Assembly (NCBI GenBank): GCA_003567855.1
Contig: PWYM01000144.1
Coordinates: 1-53,368 of the forward strand
Origin: Gammaproteobacteria bacterium
GTDB lineage: Bacteria; Pseudomonadota; Gammaproteobacteria; Steroidobacterales; PWYM01
DNA length: 53,368 nucleotides
Reading direction: 5' to 3'
In this document: piece by piece, positions 3,066-15,603 of the stretch
Layout of the letters: the number at the start of each line of letters is the position of its first letter
Position numbering within the stretch: the stretch's first letter is position 1
Translations under genes and position numbers: made by a program
The notes under the pieces: model-generated
The model's input: the letters and a program-made list of their open reading frames with translations, nothing else
Database searches by the model: none
What the model was told of the DNA's origin: nothing

Positions 3066-4667
3066 ATGTCGGACGACCCGCCACCGCCCGGCCCCGTTGA
3101 GCGCAGCCAGCGTCGCGGCGCCTTCACCCGCTTCCTCGACACCGTCGAGTGGCTCGGCAACCTGCTGCCTCACCCGGTCACGCTGTTTGCGCTGCTCGCA
3201 CTCGCCGTGCTGCTGCTCTCGGGCCTCATGGGTGCGCTCGGCGTTGCGGTGCCGGATCCGCGTCCGGAAGGCGCCGCCGGACGTGCCGAGGACGGCATGA
3301 TTCGCGCGATCAGCCTGCTCAACGGTGACGGGCTGCGCATGATTGTGCTGAACCTCGTCGACAACTTCACGGGCTTCGTCCCGCTCGGCACGGTACTCGT
3401 CGCGCTGCTCGGTGTCGGCGTCGCCGAGCGCTCCGGGCTGCTCGGCGCGGTGATCCGCGGCATGGTGCTGCGCGCGCCGACCCACGTGGTCACGGTTGCG
3501 GTGGTGTTCGGCGGCGTGGTCTCGAACACCGCGTCGGAGATGGGCTACGTGGTGCTCGTGCCGCTGGCCGCGGTGGTCTTCTATTCGCTCGGGCGTCATC
3601 CGCTGGCCGGGCTCGCCGCGGCCTTCGCCGGCGTGTCCGGCGGCTACAGCGCGAACCTGCTGCTCGGTACCGTCGACCCGCTGCTCGCCGGCATCACGCA
3701 GGAGGCCGCGCGGCTGATCGACCCCGACTACGTCGTCGACGCGAGCGCGAACTGGTATTTCATGATCGTCAGCACGTTCATGATCACCGCGGTCGGCGCG
3801 TGGGTGACGATACGCATCGTCGAGCCCAAGCTCGGGCAATACGATCCGTCACTGGCCGAGGCCGACCTCGACGAGGAGTCGCGCCTCGAGCCGCTGTCGC
3901 GCGAGGAAAAGCGTGGCCTTGCCTGGGCGGGCGTCGCGGTGCTCATCGTCAGCGTGTTGCTCGCGCTGTCGGTGGTGCCCGAGTGGGGCGTGCTGCGCAA
4001 CCCCGACACCGGGGAAGTGCGCCACTCGCCGTTCCTGCGCGGCATCGTCGCGCTGATCTTCGTGTTCTTCCTGATTCCGGGAATCGCCTACGGCTGGGTG
4101 ACCGGCGAATTCCGCTCCGACCGTGACGTCATCAACGCGATGGCGCAGACGATGAGTACGCTCGGGCTGTACATCACGCTGGTGTTCTTCGCCGCGCAGT
4201 TCGTCGCCTTCTTCGGCTGGACCAACCTCGGTGCGATCACCGCGGTGACCGGCGCCGAGGCGCTCGAGACCATCGGCCTGACCGGCCCGCTGGTCTTCGT
4301 GCTGTTCATCCTGATGTGCTGCTTCGTGAACCTCATGCTCGGGTCGGCATCGGCGCAGTGGGCGGTGACGGCGCCGATCTTCGTGCCGATGCTGATGCTG
4401 ATCGGCTATAGCCCCGAGGTGATACAGGCCGCGTATCGTATCGGCGACTCCTCCACCAACATCATCACGCCGATGATGAGCTACTTCGGGCTGATTCTTG
4501 CGTTCGCATCGCGCTACATCAGAAACCTCGGAATAGGCACGCTCATCGCGACGATGCTGCCGTACTCGATTGCGTTCCTGACCGGATGGATCCTGCTGTT
4601 CTACACGTGGGTATTCTTGCTTGGCATGCCGGTAGGGCCGGCGGCACCGACCTACTACGGCAACTGA
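3066..4667 (+). CDS. AbgT family transporter
   Basis: Polytopic 533 aa; WLGNLLPHPVTLFALLAL, NFTGFVPLGTVLVALLGVGVAERSGL, YRIGDSSTNIITPMMSYFGLIL are AbgT family hallmarks. Confidence 0.92.
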   Translation: MSDDPPPPGPVERSQRRGAFTRFLDTVEWLGNLLPHPVTLFALLALAVLLLSGLMGALGVAVPDPRPEGAAGRAEDGMIRAISLLNGDGLRMIVLNLVDNFTGFVPLGTVLVALLGVGVAERSGLLGAVIRGMVLRAPTHVVTVAVVFGGVVSNTASEMGYVVLVPLAAVVFYSLGRHPLAGLAAAFAGVSGGYSANLLLGTVDPLLAGITQEAARLIDPDYVVDASANWYFMIVSTFMITAVGAWVTIRIVEPKLGQYDPSLAEADLDEESRLEPLSREEKRGLAWAGVAVLIVSVLLALSVVPEWGVLRNPDTGEVRHSPFLRGIVALIFVFFLIPGIAYGWVTGEFRSDRDVINAMAQTMSTLGLYITLVFFAAQFVAFFGWTNLGAITAVTGAEALETIGLTGPLVFVLFILMCCFVNLMLGSASAQWAVTAPIFVPMLMLIGYSPEVIQAAYRIGDSSTNIITPMMSYFGLILAFASRYIRNLGIGTLIATMLPYSIAFLTGWILLFYTWVFLLGMPVGPAAPTYYGN

Positions 4668-4677
4668 GCAGGCAGCC

Positions 4678-5298
4678 TTACTTCTGCTGCCAGTTGCCGT
4701 CGCCGTCGCGGTAGTACCAGCCGCTGCGCGCGCGCTCGATCCAGCGCCGGGCAAACACCTCGCGGATGCGCGACTCCCACTGCGGGTTGTCGTTGGCGAC
4801 GGCGATCTCGCGGTAGAGGTTGTTGCGGTCGGTGTTTTCGTCGGCGACCAGCCTGCGCACGTTGTTGCGCTCGGCGAGCGGGACCGCGTTGGCATCCCGG
4901 ATCTCGACGAGGCCGTCGCGGTTCAGGCCGACCGCGCCCGAGGCGTAGTAGGGCTCGAGTTCGCGATGGCGCGCCTGCATAGACGCCTCGATGCGGCGGA
5001 TCGCCGGGCTCGAGATGTCGAAGTCGGCCGGCTGCGCGTGCGCCGCGGGCAGCAGGAAGTTGCCGATCGCCGCGAACGCGGCGGCGCCGCGTGCCGGGGG
5101 CGCGAATGCACCCTCGGTGCCGTCCCCGGTGCGTGGTGCGTCACCTTCGCGGCGGCGCGTCTCGCTGCCCCAGACGCCGTCAATGAACTGGTCGGCGGCC
5201 TGCTCGGCGGCCGCCGCCGGGAAATAGACGTTGATCGTCACGCAGGCCGAGACCAGCGCGACGCAGCCGGCGAGGCCGAAGATCCAGCGGGTATTCAT
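4678..5298 (-). CDS. YdbL-like DUF1318 lipoprotein
   Basis: Lipobox (LVSAC) then VTINVYFPAAAAEQAADQFIDGVWG, the DUF1318/YdbL signature. Confidence 0.85.
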   Translation of the reverse strand: MNTRWIFGLAGCVALVSACVTINVYFPAAAAEQAADQFIDGVWGSETRRREGDAPRTGDGTEGAFAPPARGAAAFAAIGNFLLPAAHAQPADFDISSPAIRRIEASMQARHRELEPYYASGAVGLNRDGLVEIRDANAVPLAERNNVRRLVADENTDRNNLYREIAVANDNPQWESRIREVFARRWIERARSGWYYRDGDGNWQQK

Positions 5299-5449
5299 GT
5301 TGGACTCACTTCACATGCAGGGGGCGGGGCTTCACCCGGATATCGTCCGATTATCCGCGGCGGGCCGGGTGTACGCCAGCGCCGTGCCGGGAGTCTTCAT
5401 GGCCACTGTGCGCCGCGTTGCCTGAACGCGCGCTGAAGGCGTGGTCCGG

Positions 5450-7588
5450 TCAGCGGATTACCGCCTCGTCGAGCTGCTGCAGGCTTGCGAGCTGCTGGAG
5501 CAGCAGCGGCCACGCGACCCGGTCGGCGCTGCCGATGACGTCGATACGCGGCAGGCCTCGGCCGCGGACGAGGTAGTAGCCGCCATTGGCTGCGCCGGCG
5601 CCGCCCATGTGGCACACCTCGTTGCGCAGCGTGCAGCTCAGGCCGATCTCGGCGTAGTTGAACTCGTCAAAGAAACGCATGAACCCCCCCGACAGTGCCC
5701 CACCCATGCCGCCGGTGCCGATGCTAGAGAGGTTGTCGATCGCGCGCTGGCTGATCCGTCGCCGGCCGGTGTAGCCGGGCGTCGTGTAGAGCCGCGCGCG
5801 AAACGCGCTCGGCTGCCAGTTGACCAGCCGCAGGCCGAGCAGCTCGCCGTCGACGCGTCCGGAGATCTGCCCGAAGGCGAAGGTCCCGGTGAGCGTCTCG
5901 AGGTCGAGCTGGCGCATCGTCACGTCGGCCTCGAGGCGCGGCAGCGGGCTGAGCAGCCCCTCGATCCGCAGGTTGTCTACGGTGATGTCGCCGTCGAACA
6001 CCCTGGCGCGCAGCGTCCCGTCGGTGGTCAGCGTCCTGTCGTGGTAGGCGATGCCCGGTAGCGAACCGGCCAGCGTGCCACGCATCTCGGGCCACTCCAG
6101 CGCGGCGGTCAACCGGCGCAGGCTGATCGGCTCGAGCTCGGCCTCGACACGAAGTCGGGGCGCGCCGTCGGCAAGGCCGGTGAGCGCAAGCTCGCCAATG
6201 ACCATCGCGCCGTCGAGCACCGGGATGCGCTGCCGGCCGGGTGCGCTGACCTGGTCACCGGCGGCGCGGAACTCGAGCCGGCTGGGGCCGAGCGCCATGC
6301 GCAGCAGGCCCCCGCCCGACCACTCGATCCACGAGCGTCGGGCTTCGCCTGCGCGCGACCAATGCACTTCGGCGCCGAGCCCGTCGAAGTCGAGCCGCTC
6401 CTGCCGGTCGGTGATCGACGCGTCGCGCAGGTAGGCGGTGAGTGAATCGATACCGCCGTCGCGCCACCGCACGCTGGCCTGCAGCGTGCCGCGTGGAGTG
6501 AGCGTGTCCAGCGGCGTACCGAGCAGGAACGGCTGGGCGTAACGCGCATAGGCGCCCTCGAGTCCGGCGTCGATCCGTTCGACGTCGAAGTGCCCGGCTC
6601 CATCGGCGGTGAGGGCGCCACGGCCGTCGACGGCGAGTACTTCGGGGTCGCGGTAGCGCAGGCGGGTGAGGACCGGCTCGGCGTCGGGGCCTTCGCGGTG
6701 TCCGGCGATCTCGAACTGCACCGGCCCGTCGTCGAAGTCGAGGAATACAGGCTCGAAGTAGGCCTGGCCACGCACCATGCGCACGAGGCCGCGGAACTCG
6801 ATGCGCGCGTCGAGCCGTCCGTGCAGGTGCGCATCGACGGTCATGCCGATGTGCTCGGCGGCGAGTGAACCGTCCGCATCGGAGAAGCCGACATGTTGGG
6901 GCATCGTCGTCGCCCGCACGTCGACAGCGCCGTCCGCGCCGACGCGCGCCACCACGTTACCGTCGAGCCGGCCCGTGACCGCAAAGCCGTCGGGCAGCGG
7001 CAGTAGGGCAAGCCATGCCCGCGGTGTCTGTTCGACGTCGAGGTCGCGCAGTCGCAGTTCGGCGCGCAGCGCGCCGTTGCCACGCCGGTTCAGCGTCAGC
7101 GACACCTGGCCGCCGGCGACGCCCACACCGGTCAGTTCGGCGCGCACGTGTCCGTCGGTGACGAGCTCCAGCGACAGGCGTGCGTTGCTGGTGTCGATCT
7201 CGGGCCATGGCCCCTGCAGTCGTCCGTCGCCGCAGCTGACGCCGTTGCGGTGCACTCGCAGGGTCCCGCACTGCAGGGCGACGGGGCCCTGCGTGCCGGT
7301 CGGCGGCGGCAGTTCCAGCGCGCCGATGCGCAGCACGCCGGCGAACGCGTCGTCGGCCGGCGTGAGCGCGACGGTGACGTCGCGCGCGGCGAAGCCGGGG
7401 CCCGTGACGTCGGCGAGCGACAGCTCGAGCGACGCGGCCCCGGCGCAGTGCGCAGCGAACGCCCACACCAGTGCGAGCGTGCCCGCCGTGGCGCGCGGCC
7501 GCCCGGTCCGGCGCAGCCGGAGACGCTTACGGGCGGCGTCGGTGAATGCGACGGTCGTCCTCGTCTGCAGCGGCGGGCGGGCTATCAT
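5450..7588 (-). CDS. YdbH-like / AsmA-like repeat envelope protein
   Basis: 712 aa beta-repeat protein with N-terminal signal anchor, immediately upstream of the DUF1318 gene as in ydbH-ydbL loci; C-terminal FDEFNYAEIGLSCTLRNEVCHMGG segment. Confidence 0.65.
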   Translation of the reverse strand: MIARPPLQTRTTVAFTDAARKRLRLRRTGRPRATAGTLALVWAFAAHCAGAASLELSLADVTGPGFAARDVTVALTPADDAFAGVLRIGALELPPPTGTQGPVALQCGTLRVHRNGVSCGDGRLQGPWPEIDTSNARLSLELVTDGHVRAELTGVGVAGGQVSLTLNRRGNGALRAELRLRDLDVEQTPRAWLALLPLPDGFAVTGRLDGNVVARVGADGAVDVRATTMPQHVGFSDADGSLAAEHIGMTVDAHLHGRLDARIEFRGLVRMVRGQAYFEPVFLDFDDGPVQFEIAGHREGPDAEPVLTRLRYRDPEVLAVDGRGALTADGAGHFDVERIDAGLEGAYARYAQPFLLGTPLDTLTPRGTLQASVRWRDGGIDSLTAYLRDASITDRQERLDFDGLGAEVHWSRAGEARRSWIEWSGGGLLRMALGPSRLEFRAAGDQVSAPGRQRIPVLDGAMVIGELALTGLADGAPRLRVEAELEPISLRRLTAALEWPEMRGTLAGSLPGIAYHDRTLTTDGTLRARVFDGDITVDNLRIEGLLSPLPRLEADVTMRQLDLETLTGTFAFGQISGRVDGELLGLRLVNWQPSAFRARLYTTPGYTGRRRISQRAIDNLSSIGTGGMGGALSGGFMRFFDEFNYAEIGLSCTLRNEVCHMGGAGAANGGYYLVRGRGLPRIDVIGSADRVAWPLLLQQLASLQQLDEAVIR

Positions 7589-7619
7589 GCGCGCATGCTA
7601 CCCCGCCCGTGGAGCCCTG

Positions 7620-8843
7620 ATGGCCGCAAAGCGTGCGCTCATCGTCGACGATTCCGCCACTGCCAGGCTCGTGCTCGGCCGGTTGCTGACCGGGCACGGC
7701 ATCAAGGTGGACGGCGCGCGTTCGGCCGAGGAGGCGCTGGAATACCTGGAGCACGCGCGTCCGGACGTGGTGTTCATGGACCACCAGATGCCGGGCATGG
7801 ACGGCCTCGAGGCACTGCAGGCGATCAAGGCCAATCCCGACACGGCGACCATCCCGGTAATGATGTACACCTCGCAGGAGGGCGAGGTGTACGTGGGGCA
7901 GGCGCGCGCGCTCGGGGCGATCGGGGTGCTGCCCAAGCAGGTCGCGCCGGTGGAGGTCTCGGAGATCCTGCGCTCGCTCCGGCTGATCGGCGACGCCGCC
8001 GCGGCCGACGATGCATCGCTGGAATCGGCCGCTGAAGCTGCCGAGGCGGCACTCGAGTCGCTGCCCGAAGACGGTGGCAGCGCCGAGTTGCGCGACCTGC
8101 TCCGGACGCTGTTCCGTCAGCAACGTGACCTGTTGCGTCGTGAACTGGAGTCGGTGCGCGCCGCCACAGCGGCGGCGCAGCCCGGGCGGGGGCCCTGGCG
8201 CGCGCTGAGCCTGGCGCTGGCGGTGGTTTCGGTCATCATGGCCGCGCTATGGGTCGATGCGCGGCGTGCACCGCCGCCGACCGACATGGCTGCCGGCGCC
8301 CAGCCGCCCACTGCGGCCGCCGCGCCTGCGACTGCGCCGCCTGCCGCCACCGCTTCTGGCGAGGTCATCGAGGCTCTGGGCTGGGCGTTGGGTCAGAACA
8401 GCACCTTCGGCATCGACGAGGCGCCTCTGGACGCGCCTCGCGCGGCGATGCTCGAGTCGCTGTTCGACCGGCTCGACGCGCTGGGTTTCGCCGGCACCGT
8501 CGTGCTGCGCACCCACCTCGGACGCTTCTGTCTCGTCGAGGGTGCCGATGGCGGCTGGTTGTTGCCGCCACCGGGGGCGCTGCTCGGCGACTGTGACCGG
8601 CTCGGCTGGCCGGAGTCGGAGGCGGTGCGCCTCGGTGGGCGACAGACGCTCGGGTTCGCCAACGGCGTCGCCCGGCTCGCGACCCGGCATGGTGAGCGCA
8701 TCAGGCTCGAACTCGAAACCGCCGGCGGCGAGGCGCCCCGCAGCGCTTATCCGGAACCCCACGAGGCGCTGCCGGTCTCGGAATGGAATACCATCGCTGC
8801 CGACAACCAGCGCGTCGAGATCATGCTGTTTCCCGATGACTGA
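7620..8843 (+). CDS. Response regulator: REC domain, predicted TM helix, C-terminal extracytoplasmic domain of unknown function
   Basis: In-frame ATG at 7620; canonical REC residues (LIVDDS, VVFMDHQMPGMDG, MYTSQ, LPKQ), then RALSLALAVVSVIMAALWV TM segment, Ala/Pro linker and ~160-aa C-terminal domain. Confidence 0.85.
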   Translation: MAAKRALIVDDSATARLVLGRLLTGHGIKVDGARSAEEALEYLEHARPDVVFMDHQMPGMDGLEALQAIKANPDTATIPVMMYTSQEGEVYVGQARALGAIGVLPKQVAPVEVSEILRSLRLIGDAAAADDASLESAAEAAEAALESLPEDGGSAELRDLLRTLFRQQRDLLRRELESVRAATAAAQPGRGPWRALSLALAVVSVIMAALWVDARRAPPPTDMAAGAQPPTAAAAPATAPPAATASGEVIEALGWALGQNSTFGIDEAPLDAPRAAMLESLFDRLDALGFAGTVVLRTHLGRFCLVEGADGGWLLPPPGALLGDCDRLGWPESEAVRLGGRQTLGFANGVARLATRHGERIRLELETAGGEAPRSAYPEPHEALPVSEWNTIAADNQRVEIMLFPDD

Positions 8844-10246: not shown

Positions 10247-11044
10247 TCAGCGCATGCCCATTTCCATCGACCGATAGCCGCGCGGCACTTCGAAATAACC
10301 GGGGTCGACCGTGGTGCGCTCGATGCGCAGCAGTTCGGTTTCGATCGCATCTTCCTCGTCGTCGCGCTGCTCGAACGAACGTATGGGCAGGCCCGACAGG
10401 TCGGTGAGCGGCAGGATCGGGTTGGCCGGCAATATCATCGGCACCCGTCCGGCCATCTGTGACAGCAGTTCCTCGTAGAACTCGCCCATCGCCGACATCA
10501 TCGCGAGCATGTCCTCGCCGCCGGGGACGTCGGTATGGGCCGCGACGCATGCCCGGCCGATGGTGCGATCTTCCTCGAGGATGTCGTACCAGCGGCAGTC
10601 GATGCCGGCCGCGGAACCGCGTTCGTCGGTTTCGCTGAAGGTGCGCTCGGGCGGCGCTTCGGTGGTGTCGCCGAACATCGAACCCATCTGCTGTTCGATC
10701 ATCTCGCGCTGCTGCGGCGGCATCTGGTCGAGCTGGGCGCGCATTTCCTGCATCGCGCGATCGATCTCGTCGACCATCACCGAGACGTTGTCGCGGTTGA
10801 GTTCGAGGTAGGCGCGATCATCGTGATCGATGGTGATCAGAGAGCCGCTTTCGCGCACGAAGATCATCGTGACCTGGCCGTCTTCGTTCATCGACGCGAG
10901 GCGACCTTCGGAGACCATCATGCGGATTTCCTCGATGTCGTCACCGTGGCGCTCCTCGAGCGTGAGCACGACGTCGTCGGCGAGGGCCGGGGCGGTCGAC
11001 GCCAGGAACAGCAGCACGGCGGAGAGGGTTATCGTTCTCATCAT
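10247..11044 (-). CDS. Secreted protein of unknown function, DUF4412-like
   Basis: Signal peptide (MMRTITLSAVLLFLASTAPALA), acidic/amphipathic 265-aa protein. Confidence 0.65.
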   Translation of the reverse strand: MMRTITLSAVLLFLASTAPALADDVVLTLEERHGDDIEEIRMMVSEGRLASMNEDGQVTMIFVRESGSLITIDHDDRAYLELNRDNVSVMVDEIDRAMQEMRAQLDQMPPQQREMIEQQMGSMFGDTTEAPPERTFSETDERGSAAGIDCRWYDILEEDRTIGRACVAAHTDVPGGEDMLAMMSAMGEFYEELLSQMAGRVPMILPANPILPLTDLSGLPIRSFEQRDDEEDAIETELLRIERTTVDPGYFEVPRGYRSMEMGMR

Positions 11045-11187: not shown

Positions 11188-11463
11188 ATGGATGGCGCCG
11201 CACAGCACCTCGAAGACCCGCCACCGCCCGGCGTCGGCGCGCCGCCGCCGGCGTGGCTGGCATGGACGCGGACACTGCTCGCGGCGGGCGTCGCGCGCAA
11301 TGCCGACGGGCCGTACACCGGACAGCTCGCGACGGTCGACGCGGCGGGTGCGCCAACGGTTCGCACCCAGATCAATGTGCTGCGGCTGTCAGCCGACGGG
11401 CACCGGCGGCTGCGCTTTGCATTCGACGGCGAAGGCTTCCAGGGTACGTGGGTGCTGCCGTGA
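11188..11463 (+). CDS. Small ORF with weak resemblance to the N-terminus of PNPOx-like FMN-binding proteins
   Basis: 91 aa; PPPAWLAWTRTLLAAGVARNADGPYTGQLATVDAAGAPTVRTQINVLRL; stop overlaps the GTG start of the photolyase gene (GTGA). Confidence 0.5.
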   Translation: MDGAAQHLEDPPPPGVGAPPPAWLAWTRTLLAAGVARNADGPYTGQLATVDAAGAPTVRTQINVLRLSADGHRRLRFAFDGEGFQGTWVLP

Positions 11464-13871
11464 GCGGGCACGCCGACATCGGGCCGCTGCCCCCGCACCT
11501 CGCCGTGCGTTGTGACGTGCTGCGCTCGGCGCCGCCATACGCCGGGGGTTACGTCCTGTGGTGGGCGCATCATGCGCTGCGCGACCATGACAACGCGTGC
11601 CTGGACGCGGCGTTGTGGCTCGGGCAGCGGCTGGGTCTGCCGGTGCTCGCCTACGCGGGGCTGCACGGCGCACATCCCTATGCGAGTGACCGTCACCACG
11701 CTTTCATCCTCCAGGCGCTGGCCGACTGGCAGAGCGCGCTCGAGGCGCGCGGGGTGCACACGCGGGTGTCGTTGCCTGTCGGCGGCGCGCGCAGTCCCCT
11801 GCCGGCCCTGGCCGCCGATGCCGCAGCGGTGGTCGTCGAGCAGTTCCCGGTGCCGCCGATGGTGGCGTGGACCCGTCGTCTCGCGCATCAGGCGCGCGGG
11901 CCGGTGTGGGCAATGGATGCCCGCTGCATCGTGCCCGCGCCTGCGGTTGCGGGGCGGCACACGCGCGCGTACCGCTTTCGTGATGCGATCGCGGCGGCGT
12001 TCGATGCGGCGCTGGCCTCGCCGTGGCCCGCGTGCGAGGACGAGCCGCGCCCGCACGCGTTGCCAGCGCTGCCGGGAGCGGGCTGGGTACGCCCGGCCGA
12101 CACCGATCTGGCGGCGCTGCTCGCGGCGATGCCCATCGATCACGCCGTGGGCCCCGTCGCCGATACGCCGGGCGGAATGGCGGCCGGCTATGCGCGCTGG
12201 CATGCGTTCCGTGACCAGGGCCTGGCGCGGTATCACCGGGACCGTAACGACCCGGTGCTGGCGCCGCCGCAGGGTGTCAGCCGACTGTCGCCGTACCTGC
12301 ACTACGGCTGCGTCTCGGCGCTCGCCATCGCGCGCGAGGCGCACGCGTTGGGCGGTCCGGGCGCGCGCAAGTTTCTCGACGAACTCGTCGTCTGGCGGGA
12401 ACTCGCCCACCATTTCTGCCGCCACGCGAAGTCGCTGCGCACGCTGGACGTGCTGCCGGACTGGGCGCGCGAAACCCTGCTTGCCCATGCCGACGACGCG
12501 CGCGAGCGCGAACCGGGCTGGGAGGCGCTCGCCCGGGCGCGCAGCGGCGATGCGCTGTGGGATCTCGCGCAGCGTTCGCTGCTCGTGCATGGCGAGCTGC
12601 ACAACAACATGCGCATGACCTGGGGCAAGGCGATCGTGCAGTGGACCGACGGGCCGGCGCAGGCGCTCGACTGGCTGCTTGATCTCAATCACCGCTATGC
12701 GCTCGACGGCTGCGATCCGAACTCGTGGGGCGGGCTGCTGTGGTGCCTGGGCCAGTTCGATCGGCCGTTCCCGCCCGAGCGCCCCGTACTCGGCACCGTG
12801 CGACCGCGGGATACCGCGACGCATCGTCGGCGCCTGACGCCCGAGCGATGGGCGCCGCGCATCGACAGACCGAACGGGGCGCCGCTGCGGATCGCGGTGA
12901 TCGGCGCCGGCGCCGCCGGTGCGATGGCGGCCCGCACGCTCGCCGACCACGGCCACGCGGTCTGCGTGCTCGACAAGGGCCGTGGCCCCGGCGGCCGCAC
13001 CGCGACGCGGCGCGAAGGTGCGCTGCGCTTCGACCACGGTGCCCAGTACCTGACCTTCGATGACCCGCGGCTGGCACGGCTCGTCACGGCCTGGCGCGAG
13101 GCCGGCCTGCTGGAGCCGTGGCCGGCCGCCGGCAGCGACGGGCGCCGCGTGGTGCCGGTGCCCGCAATGAAGGCGCTCGTCTCGCACCTGCTCGCCGACA
13201 TCGACGACTGCCGCTTCGCGACCGAAATCGTCACTCTCGAGCGTCGCGATCGCCAGTGGGTGCTGCACACCGCTGACGGCGCGCTGGCGCCGGCGTTCGA
13301 CGTCGTACTCGTCACCGCGCCTGCGCCGCAGGCGGCCACGCTGCTCGAGGGTGCTTCGCCGGAGTTGTCCCTCGCAGCGGCAGGGGCGCAGGTCGCGCCG
13401 TGCTGGACGCTGATGATCGCGGACCCGACGCTCGCGCTCGCTGCGGGCGGCGACACCCATCGCGGCGCCAGTGGCGAGTCGATCGCCTGGGCCGCGCGCG
13501 ATGCCGGCAAGCCGGGACGCGACGCCGCCGGTGGCACCTGGGTCGTACAGGCGTCGGTGGACTGGAGCATGCGCTGGCTCGAGCTCGACCGCGATGCGGC
13601 CGGCGAAAAGCTCTGGGCCGAGGCCGCGCCGCTGTTCGGGGTCGCCGCCGACGCGCCGCCGCCCGGCTTTCTGCGGGCGCATCGCTGGCGTTACGCGCGC
13701 GTGATTCGGGCACTGGACCGCGAGGCGTTGTGGGATGACGCCCGTGCGGTCGGCGCCGGTGGTGACTGGTGCCTGGGGCCGCGGGTCGAGTGTGCGCTGC
13801 TGTCGGGGGCAGCACTCGCCGGCCGCGTTCTGTGCCATGCCGCGCTGGCGGCTGCGAGGGTCGACGGCTGA
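11460..13871 (+). CDS. Fusion protein: class II-like DNA photolyase + C-terminal FAD-dependent oxidoreductase (COG3380/renalase-like)
   Basis: GTG start at 11460 in a continuous frame. Photolyase motifs GGYVLWWAHHALRDHDNACLDAALWLG, FLDELVVWRELAHHFC, WGKAIVQWTDGPAQAL, YALDGCDPNSWGGLLWCLGQFDRP; then Rossmann/FAD motif IAVIGAGAAGAMAARTLADHGHAVCVLDKGRGPGGRTATRR and DHGAQYLT. Confidence 0.88.
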   Translation: MSGHADIGPLPPHLAVRCDVLRSAPPYAGGYVLWWAHHALRDHDNACLDAALWLGQRLGLPVLAYAGLHGAHPYASDRHHAFILQALADWQSALEARGVHTRVSLPVGGARSPLPALAADAAAVVVEQFPVPPMVAWTRRLAHQARGPVWAMDARCIVPAPAVAGRHTRAYRFRDAIAAAFDAALASPWPACEDEPRPHALPALPGAGWVRPADTDLAALLAAMPIDHAVGPVADTPGGMAAGYARWHAFRDQGLARYHRDRNDPVLAPPQGVSRLSPYLHYGCVSALAIAREAHALGGPGARKFLDELVVWRELAHHFCRHAKSLRTLDVLPDWARETLLAHADDAREREPGWEALARARSGDALWDLAQRSLLVHGELHNNMRMTWGKAIVQWTDGPAQALDWLLDLNHRYALDGCDPNSWGGLLWCLGQFDRPFPPERPVLGTVRPRDTATHRRRLTPERWAPRIDRPNGAPLRIAVIGAGAAGAMAARTLADHGHAVCVLDKGRGPGGRTATRREGALRFDHGAQYLTFDDPRLARLVTAWREAGLLEPWPAAGSDGRRVVPVPAMKALVSHLLADIDDCRFATEIVTLERRDRQWVLHTADGALAPAFDVVLVTAPAPQAATLLEGASPELSLAAAGAQVAPCWTLMIADPTLALAAGGDTHRGASGESIAWAARDAGKPGRDAAGGTWVVQASVDWSMRWLELDRDAAGEKLWAEAAPLFGVAADAPPPGFLRAHRWRYARVIRALDREALWDDARAVGAGGDWCLGPRVECALLSGAALAGRVLCHAALAAARVDG

Positions 13872-14025: not shown

Positions 14026-15603
14026 ATGCTGGAACTCGCGCGACGGCGGCTCGAGCGGCTCGGCGCCGCCGCGCAGGGTGTGATCGCCGGCGGGCTGCGC
14101 GGCGTCGAGAAGGAGGCGCTGCGCATCGCGCCCGATGGTCGGCTCGCGGCGACGCCGCATCCGCGCGCGCTCGGGTCCGCGCTGACCCACGCGTACATCA
14201 CCACCGACTACTCCGAGGCGTTGCTGGAATTCGTGACGCCACCGATGCCGAGCTCGGTCGAGGTTATCGACTTTCTTGCCGATCTGCACCGCTACACCGC
14301 CACGCGTATCGGCGACGAACTGCTGTGGGCGACGAGCATGCCGTGCATGCTCAGCGGCGATGACCATATCCCGCTCGCGCGGTACGGCGATTCGAACGTG
14401 GGCCGCATGAAGACCATCTACCGTCGTGGCCTCGGCTATCGTTACGGGCGCACGATGCAGACGATTTCCGGTGTGCATTTCAACTACTCGCTGCCGGAGT
14501 CTTTCTGGGCGGTTTACCAGGCCGTGGAAGGCCATGCCGGGGGTATGGAGGCGTTGCGCTCGGAGGCCTACATGGCACTGGTGCGAAACTTCCACCGCCT
14601 GGGCTGGCTGGTGCTTTACCTGTTCGGCGCATCGCCTGCCGTCTGCCGATCGTTCTTCGCGGGTCGCGAGTCGGGCCTCCAGGCCTTCGACAGCGGCACC
14701 GTCTACACGCCGTATGCAACCTCGCTGCGCATGAGCGACCTCGGCTACAAGAACCGTGACCAGGCGCGGCTGCGCATCCCGCTGAACAGTCTTGAGGAAT
14801 ACATCGATGGCCTCACGCACGCCATCGCGACGCCGAACCCGGCCTACGAGCGCATCGGCGTCGAGGTCGACGGCGAGTGGCGCCAGCTTTCGACGAGCTG
14901 GCTGCAGATCGAAAACGAGTACTACAGCGTGATCCGTCCCAAGCGCGTGGCGCGTTCGGGCGAGCGCCCGACGCAGGCGCTGAAGCGCTGCGGCGTGCAG
15001 TACGTGGAGGTGCGCGCGCTCGATGTGAACGCCTTCGAACCTGTAGGTGTCAGCGCCTGCCAGTTGCGTTTTCTCGAGGCGCTGCTGCTGCACTGCATGC
15101 TCAGCGAGTCACCGCCGATTCACGACAGCGAGTACGACGCCATTGAGCGCAACCAGCGGCGCGTGGCATGGGAAGGCCGCCGGCCGGGTTTCATGCTCGA
15201 GCGTGGTGGCGGGGAGGTCGCGCTGGCGGAATGGGCCAGCGAGGTGCTCGACCACGTCGCCGAAGTTGCCGAGCTGTTAGACGCGCCCGGCGACGGCAGT
15301 TACACGCGTGCGGTCGCCGCGCAGCGCGCGGTGCTCGAGGACCCGGCGCGCCTGCCCTCGGCGCGCCTGCTCGCCGAGATGGCCGCCCACGACGAGTCGT
15401 TTTTCCAGCTCGCGCGGCGGCTGTCTGCCGATCACGCCTCGGCGCTGCTGGCCGATGCCGCCGATCCGGCACGCGAAGGCTGTTTTACCGCCGAGGCCGA
15501 ATCGTCGCTGGAACGCCAGCGGGCGCTAGAGGCGGCTGAGCGCATCGACTTCAGAACGCACCTCGCCAACTATTACGCCGGAGTCGACACCGTCGGCGGC
15601 TGA
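14026..15603 (+). CDS. gshA: Glutamate-cysteine ligase
   Basis: GLRGVEKEALRI, ALGSALTHAYITTDYSEALLEFVTPP, MKTIYRRGLGYRYGRTMQTISGVHFNYSLP; 525 aa from ATG at 14026. Confidence 0.96.
   Translation: MLELARRRLERLGAAAQGVIAGGLRGVEKEALRIAPDGRLAATPHPRALGSALTHAYITTDYSEALLEFVTPPMPSSVEVIDFLADLHRYTATRIGDELLWATSMPCMLSGDDHIPLARYGDSNVGRMKTIYRRGLGYRYGRTMQTISGVHFNYSLPESFWAVYQAVEGHAGGMEALRSEAYMALVRNFHRLGWLVLYLFGASPAVCRSFFAGRESGLQAFDSGTVYTPYATSLRMSDLGYKNRDQARLRIPLNSLEEYIDGLTHAIATPNPAYERIGVEVDGEWRQLSTSWLQIENEYYSVIRPKRVARSGERPTQALKRCGVQYVEVRALDVNAFEPVGVSACQLRFLEALLLHCMLSESPPIHDSEYDAIERNQRRVAWEGRRPGFMLERGGGEVALAEWASEVLDHVAEVAELLDAPGDGSYTRAVAAQRAVLEDPARLPSARLLAEMAAHDESFFQLARRLSADHASALLADAADPAREGCFTAEAESSLERQRALEAAERIDFRTHLANYYAGVDTVGG

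Follow-up and report, generated by a model that had tools for sequence, protein, structure and literature searches.

Introduction

The closest described relatives of the gene examined here are separate proteins. In the class II CPD photolyase of Methanosarcina mazei (PDB 2xry, 4cdn and 8oet), roles have been assigned to the residues that bind the CPD and to those that act in the DNA bubble (PMC6126647). The tryptophan triad W381/W360/W388 of the same enzyme serves the photoreduction of the flavin, while Tyr345, Tyr380 and Glu387 are accessory in electron and proton transfer, E387 and Y345, located at the water cluster and acting in secondary electron transfer, being those that aid flavin photoreduction (PMC5885780). 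Renalases, in turn, act on inhibitors of dehydrogenases: they oxidise the 1,2- and 1,6-dihydro (2-/6-dihydro) isomers of NAD(P)H and leave the normal 1,4-NAD(P)H untouched (PMC7660482). The bacterial enzyme from Pseudomonas (PDB 3kkj, 4zcc and 4zcd; Hoag et al. 2015, as cited in PMC7660482) is a stand-alone protein.

Two described gene clusters bring photolyases together with redox enzymes. In the light-inducible LitR cluster of Pseudomonas mendocina, a photolyase gene lies beside genes for an SDR and an FAD-dependent oxidoreductase (PMC9758184), and the photolyase genes of the Shewanella RpoE2 system, which is under photo-oxidative stress control, likewise include one beside an SDR gene (PMC4336711). 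The mix of genes in both resembles the surroundings of the fusions and solo renalases found in other genomes (see below), yet these clusters consist of separate genes, in contrast to the single fused gene described here, and the oxidoreductase of the P. mendocina cluster may be a renalase or else the other flavin protein that accompanies furan fatty acid genes.

The present work analyses a stretch of 53,368 nucleotides, hereafter the window, from a gammaproteobacterial draft genome (contig PWYM01000144.1), in which a class II photolyase and a bacterial renalase are joined in one reading frame.

Results

The gene and its surroundings

Positions 11253-13871 of the forward strand constitute a single open frame devoid of stop codons; the first-pass annotation had likewise read the gene as one uninterrupted frame. 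Within this frame, the GTG at 11460 is the likely start of the fusion gene (11460..13871, + strand; 803 aa, TGA stop), because homology starts there, because the stop (TGA) of a 91-aa ORF upstream shares letters with this codon, and because the GC content of codon position 3 shifts at this point, from 0.58 in the extension upstream of 11460 to 0.85 in the photolyase half and 0.87 in the renalase half. The 91-aa ORF (11188..11463, + strand) abuts the fusion with a GTGA overlap and is a remnant of a PNPOx-like gene (PF12766, about 211 aa where intact in sister species), relative to which it has lost the middle ~120 aa in frame. The fusion is followed by the glutamate-cysteine ligase gene gshA (14026..15603, + strand; PF04262, E 1e-162, and synteny), the start of which was placed at an in-frame ATG, and is preceded by a divergent gene (10247..11044, - strand) with no Pfam match or assigned function, which is kept at the same locus across the genus. 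No light-stress cluster surrounds the fusion in the window. The genome, a fragmented draft of 302 contigs, codes for one class I-type photolyase and contains no second class II photolyase.

Identity of the two halves

The N-terminal half (residues ~5-470; 11472..12869, + strand) is a class II CPD photolyase, as first proposed. Residues 98-529, numbered from the 11253 frame, match NCBIfam TIGR00591 (E 1e-81) over profile positions 22-445 of 453; the score of 275.6 bits lies below the curated cut-off of 550, as do the scores of all 46 of the 46 fusion genomes, solo class II genes included (best 528 bits). Matches to the solved M. mazei (8oet, 2xry) and rice enzymes were also obtained, and a Foldseek search with the whole-chain model retrieved 4cdn at a TM-score of 0.90 by target length. 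The C-terminal half (residues 477-796; 12888..13847, + strand) is a bacterial renalase, which bears out its earlier assignment to the renalase-type oxidoreductases: residues 546-865 in the numbering of the 11253 frame match 4zcc/3kkj over 320 residues (E 4e-43), and the fold matches 4zcd, renalase with NAD+, at a TM-score of 0.90 by target length. The solved structures closest to this half are those of renalase with NAD+ or NADH bound. Between the two lies a linker of about six residues, RPNGAP (471-476; 12870..12887, + strand), in agreement with the domain boundary of about 12880 given by the first-pass annotation; in the model two short helices (452-458 and 461-469) precede it and a strand (477-481) follows it. 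In fusions whose domain matches are cleanly separated, the gap between the matches is 15-20 residues. No solved chain among the matches listed covers both halves.

Conserved residues

The residue roles established for M. mazei (PMC6126647 and PMC5885780) were placed on 80 fusions from other loci. The M. mazei enzyme and the photolyase half share about 25% identity and a full-length fold, the second domain being restricted to the fusion. Residues R164, R256, E301, W305, M379, D428, R429 and R441 (M. mazei numbering) are retained in 80/80 fusions, W421 in 79/80 and N257 in 75/80, and the window protein carries the complete set of CPD-binding residues (R164, R256, N257, E301, W305, M379, W421) together with D428 and R441 of the bubble. 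The bubble-intruding residues are common to both proteins except for W431, which is replaced by F. The tryptophan triad W360/W381/W388 is intact in every one of the 80 fusions. Y345, Y380 and E387, in contrast, are not conserved in the fusions: the positions of Tyr345 and Glu387 are occupied by P and Q in the window, while solo photolyases have Y in 21/21 and E in 18/21. Considering the unconserved E387 and Y345, the photolyase half of the fusion may deviate from the textbook enzyme. Relative to M. mazei, L380, N383, A391, F437, R450 and R458 (window numbering) are specific to the fusions.

The renalase half shares with the Pseudomonas enzyme a full-length fold, about 35% identity and the FAD motif, a GxGxxG at residues 482-487. 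At 28 of the 31 positions conserved among solo renalases the window protein is identical, the other three being F to L changes. To these the fused renalases add conserved R492, D496, A785 and G788, which, together with R450 and R458 at the photolyase end, are conserved in fusions only.

Predicted arrangement of the chain

AlphaFold2 modelled the window protein with a pTM of 0.95 and a pLDDT of 95.5, and the fusion L121, a divergent relative that is the first fusion to split off in the photolyase tree as drawn, with a pTM of 0.92. For domains of 470 and 330 residues such values need a confident relative placement; the models therefore imply a defined placement of one half against the other. R450 and R458 lie near the junction in sequence, and R492, D496, A785 and G788 are found in the renalase half, on its first and its last helix. 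The two halves probably meet at a conserved interface. If some of the fusion-only residues contact the photolyase half, their loss from renalases that stand alone within the fusion clade is the expected pattern; in the five such renalases found, D496 and G788 are lost in 5/5 and R492 in 4/5, and A785 is retained.

Distribution of the fusion

The first-pass annotation had proposed profile searches and a survey of domain architectures; the contigs of other genomes were searched with an alignment of four fusions, and 80 further loci with an uninterrupted fusion, a few of them clipped by contig ends, were retained from at least seven phyla. Since the search patterns represent the photolyase half of fusions, the figure of 80 fused out of 80 describes the fusion clade and not photolyases at large. 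Planctomycetota (27) and Pseudomonadota (26) dominate, followed by Thermodesulfobacteriota (9), Myxococcota (5), Bacteroidota (3), Rhodothermota (2) and Gemmatimonadota (2), with six unplaced records; cultured Halochromatium and Thiohalocapsa are among the carriers. Within the genus of the window, the relative in genome G002 is 57% identical across both halves, and two further relatives belong to other families of the class. The fusion is rare within the sampled groups yet widespread across phyla: among 399 sampled Pseudomonadota genomes the window carried the only one, two fusions besides it occurred in 369 genomes of its class, and ten were found in 294 Planctomycetota genomes, a figure that includes the genome at the centre of that sample. 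Viral contigs searched for relatives of the fusion contained none. About 13 of the 32 fusion genomes examined also encode a separate class II photolyase. A solo renalase was absent from all 32 of the 32 fusion genomes searched, which, at a background of roughly 7-10%, could be due to chance. In the planctomycete locus L121, a separate class II photolyase (4428-5987) lies directly upstream of the fusion (5914-8316) in the same direction, with the frames touching.

Origin and loss

In a tree of the photolyase halves of 80 fusions and 21 solo photolyases, the fusions fall on one side of a single branch (SH-aLRT 100), and they again form one clade (SH-aLRT 99) among 38 fusions and 41 solos, the latter including the most similar solo photolyase genes found. 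This grouping makes a single origin of the fusion probable.

The tree of the renalase halves differs in that five solo renalases nest within the fusions, three from the genus of the window and two (G011 and G024) from another family. Constraining all solo renalases together was rejected (AU p = 0.0009); holding the main solos together with the genus solos only gave p = 0.024, and with the G011/G024 pair only, p = 0.078, all of these being optimistic values, since the groups were named after the tree was seen. The nested solos are most simply read as fusions that shed their photolyase half and retained the renalase, an event which probably occurred twice. This reading of loss rests on the trees; counts of changes alone cannot tell gain and loss apart, and a search beside the nested solo renalases yielded no remnants of a photolyase. 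In G011, what at first resembled the end of a photolyase interrupted by stop codons failed on closer look.

The locus is syntenic across the genus, with the divergent gene upstream and gshA downstream. Sister species of the window carry an intact PNPOx-like gene followed by a solo renalase, where the window has the shrunken PNPOx-like gene followed by the fusion. The three genus solos (L151-L153) come from three species and occupy this syntenic site.

Neighbouring genes

Renalase and photolyase-family genes are recurrent neighbours also when unfused. A photolyase/cryptochrome-family gene occurs within a few kb at 8 of 40 solo-renalase loci, against 0.36 expected (Poisson p about 5e-9), and another photolyase-family gene near 15 of 80 fusion loci, against 0.61 expected; the expectation assumes three photolyase-family genes per 3.5 Mb and the genomes, being in part related, are not entirely independent of one another, so that such p-values are rough. 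Other neighbours recurring beside both fused and unfused renalases are SDR, DUF2256, DPRP (PF04244), SOUL and DUF2237 genes, and of the 9 loci in which the cluster with DUF2256 occurs, 8 have a DUF2256-type gene close behind the fusion. At locus L069, DUF2256 and DUF3253 share a single reading frame (2357-2881) immediately 3' of the fusion. Near two solo renalases (L159, 6924-8258; L177, 2196-3449) are photolyase-family proteins of ~420-445 aa which contain the FAD-binding domain and in which no PF00875 antenna domain is detectable.

Discussion

With modest confidence, we favour the explanation that the fusion is a light-stress enzyme with two activities, the repair of CPDs and the removal of dihydro-NAD(P) isomers, both of them predicted. 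The N-terminal photolyase would cleave pyrimidine dimers in DNA with the help of FADH- and blue or near-UV light, while the C-terminal renalase would return 2- and 6-dihydro-NAD(P), dead-end isomers which inhibit dehydrogenases, to NAD(P)+. Each half would possess its own FAD and substrate and be able to work alone, the very short linker and the probable conserved interface fixing their arrangement, and one gene would thereby join two functions that bacteria repeatedly set side by side, perhaps with some benefit from the physical link. The existence of the renalase half alone inside the fusion clade speaks for this explanation. Against it, fully independent halves leave the conserved interface and the single retained arrangement in need of another reason. 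The suggestion of a common induction by light relies on other genomes, because the neighbours of the fusion in the window are not a light-stress cluster.

Two of the roles that the first-pass annotation had offered for the C-terminal half bear on this. That of a partner in the same light-stress setting is supported by the neighbourhoods in other genomes; that of mainly feeding electrons to the photolyase is weakly supported. In the latter, the renalase half would take hydride from dihydro-NAD(P) and pass the electrons across the interface, so that the FAD of the photolyase would be kept as FADH- in the dark. The role is weakened because solo renalases nest within the fusion clade and because the tryptophan triad is intact in all fusions; in addition, with normal 1,4-NAD(P)H not being a substrate of renalase (PMC7660482), the supply of electrons would be scarce. 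It is still conceivable in view of the confident predicted arrangement and because the fusions have lost E387 and Y345, two aids to photoreduction in M. mazei, and the fusion-specific conserved residues at the photolyase end and on the renalase also agree with it. On balance we consider this relay improbable, and a shade more so the proposal that the two halves form a physical redox couple, the renalase collecting electrons from damaged NAD(P)H and handing them on to the flavin of the photolyase.

About as doubtful as the relay is the proposal that the renalase fold has a different substrate, such as a flavin, deazaflavin, pterin or fatty-acid product that arises under light stress. Identity to the characterised renalase is only about 35%, the solo relatives of this half are diverse, and the recurrent neighbours are SDR, SOUL and DUF genes rather than known enzymes of NAD salvage. 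The identity at 28 of 31 conserved renalase positions, however, and the NAD+ or NADH in the nearest solved structures point back to the renalase reaction.

Markedly less probable still is a light switch, in which the photolyase half would have given up repair and become a cryptochrome-like sensor controlling the oxidoreductase half. The defined domain arrangement predicted would suit a switch, and in the roughly 13 of 32 fusion genomes with a separate class II photolyase repair may be covered elsewhere. Yet a sensor has no need of the CPD-binding and DNA-bubble-insertion residues, which are invariant or nearly so, and in the window genome the class I-type gene is the sole photolyase gene besides the fusion. 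A frameshift or misassembly, which the first-pass annotation had weighed and which the fragmented draft might have invited, or a chance read-through, is ruled out by the same uninterrupted junction at 80 loci from other assemblies, cultured Halochromatium and Thiohalocapsa included, and by a codon-position signal alike in both halves.

Conclusions

Both enzyme families were already known; their fusion forms a family that is widespread and probably arose once. No published description of it was found in PMC open-access full texts, in accord with the earlier statement that no characterised protein of this architecture is known. Through the fusion, bacterial renalases, which are little understood, are linked to light damage, and a concrete system becomes available for two questions, namely why bacteria retain renalase and what reduces the photolyase flavin in the cell. 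Its presence in cultured purple sulfur bacteria (Halochromatium and Thiohalocapsa) makes it testable. Were the redox couple true, metabolic photodamage would be turned into reducing power for the photorepair of DNA, and the photolyase would have a dedicated electron donor.
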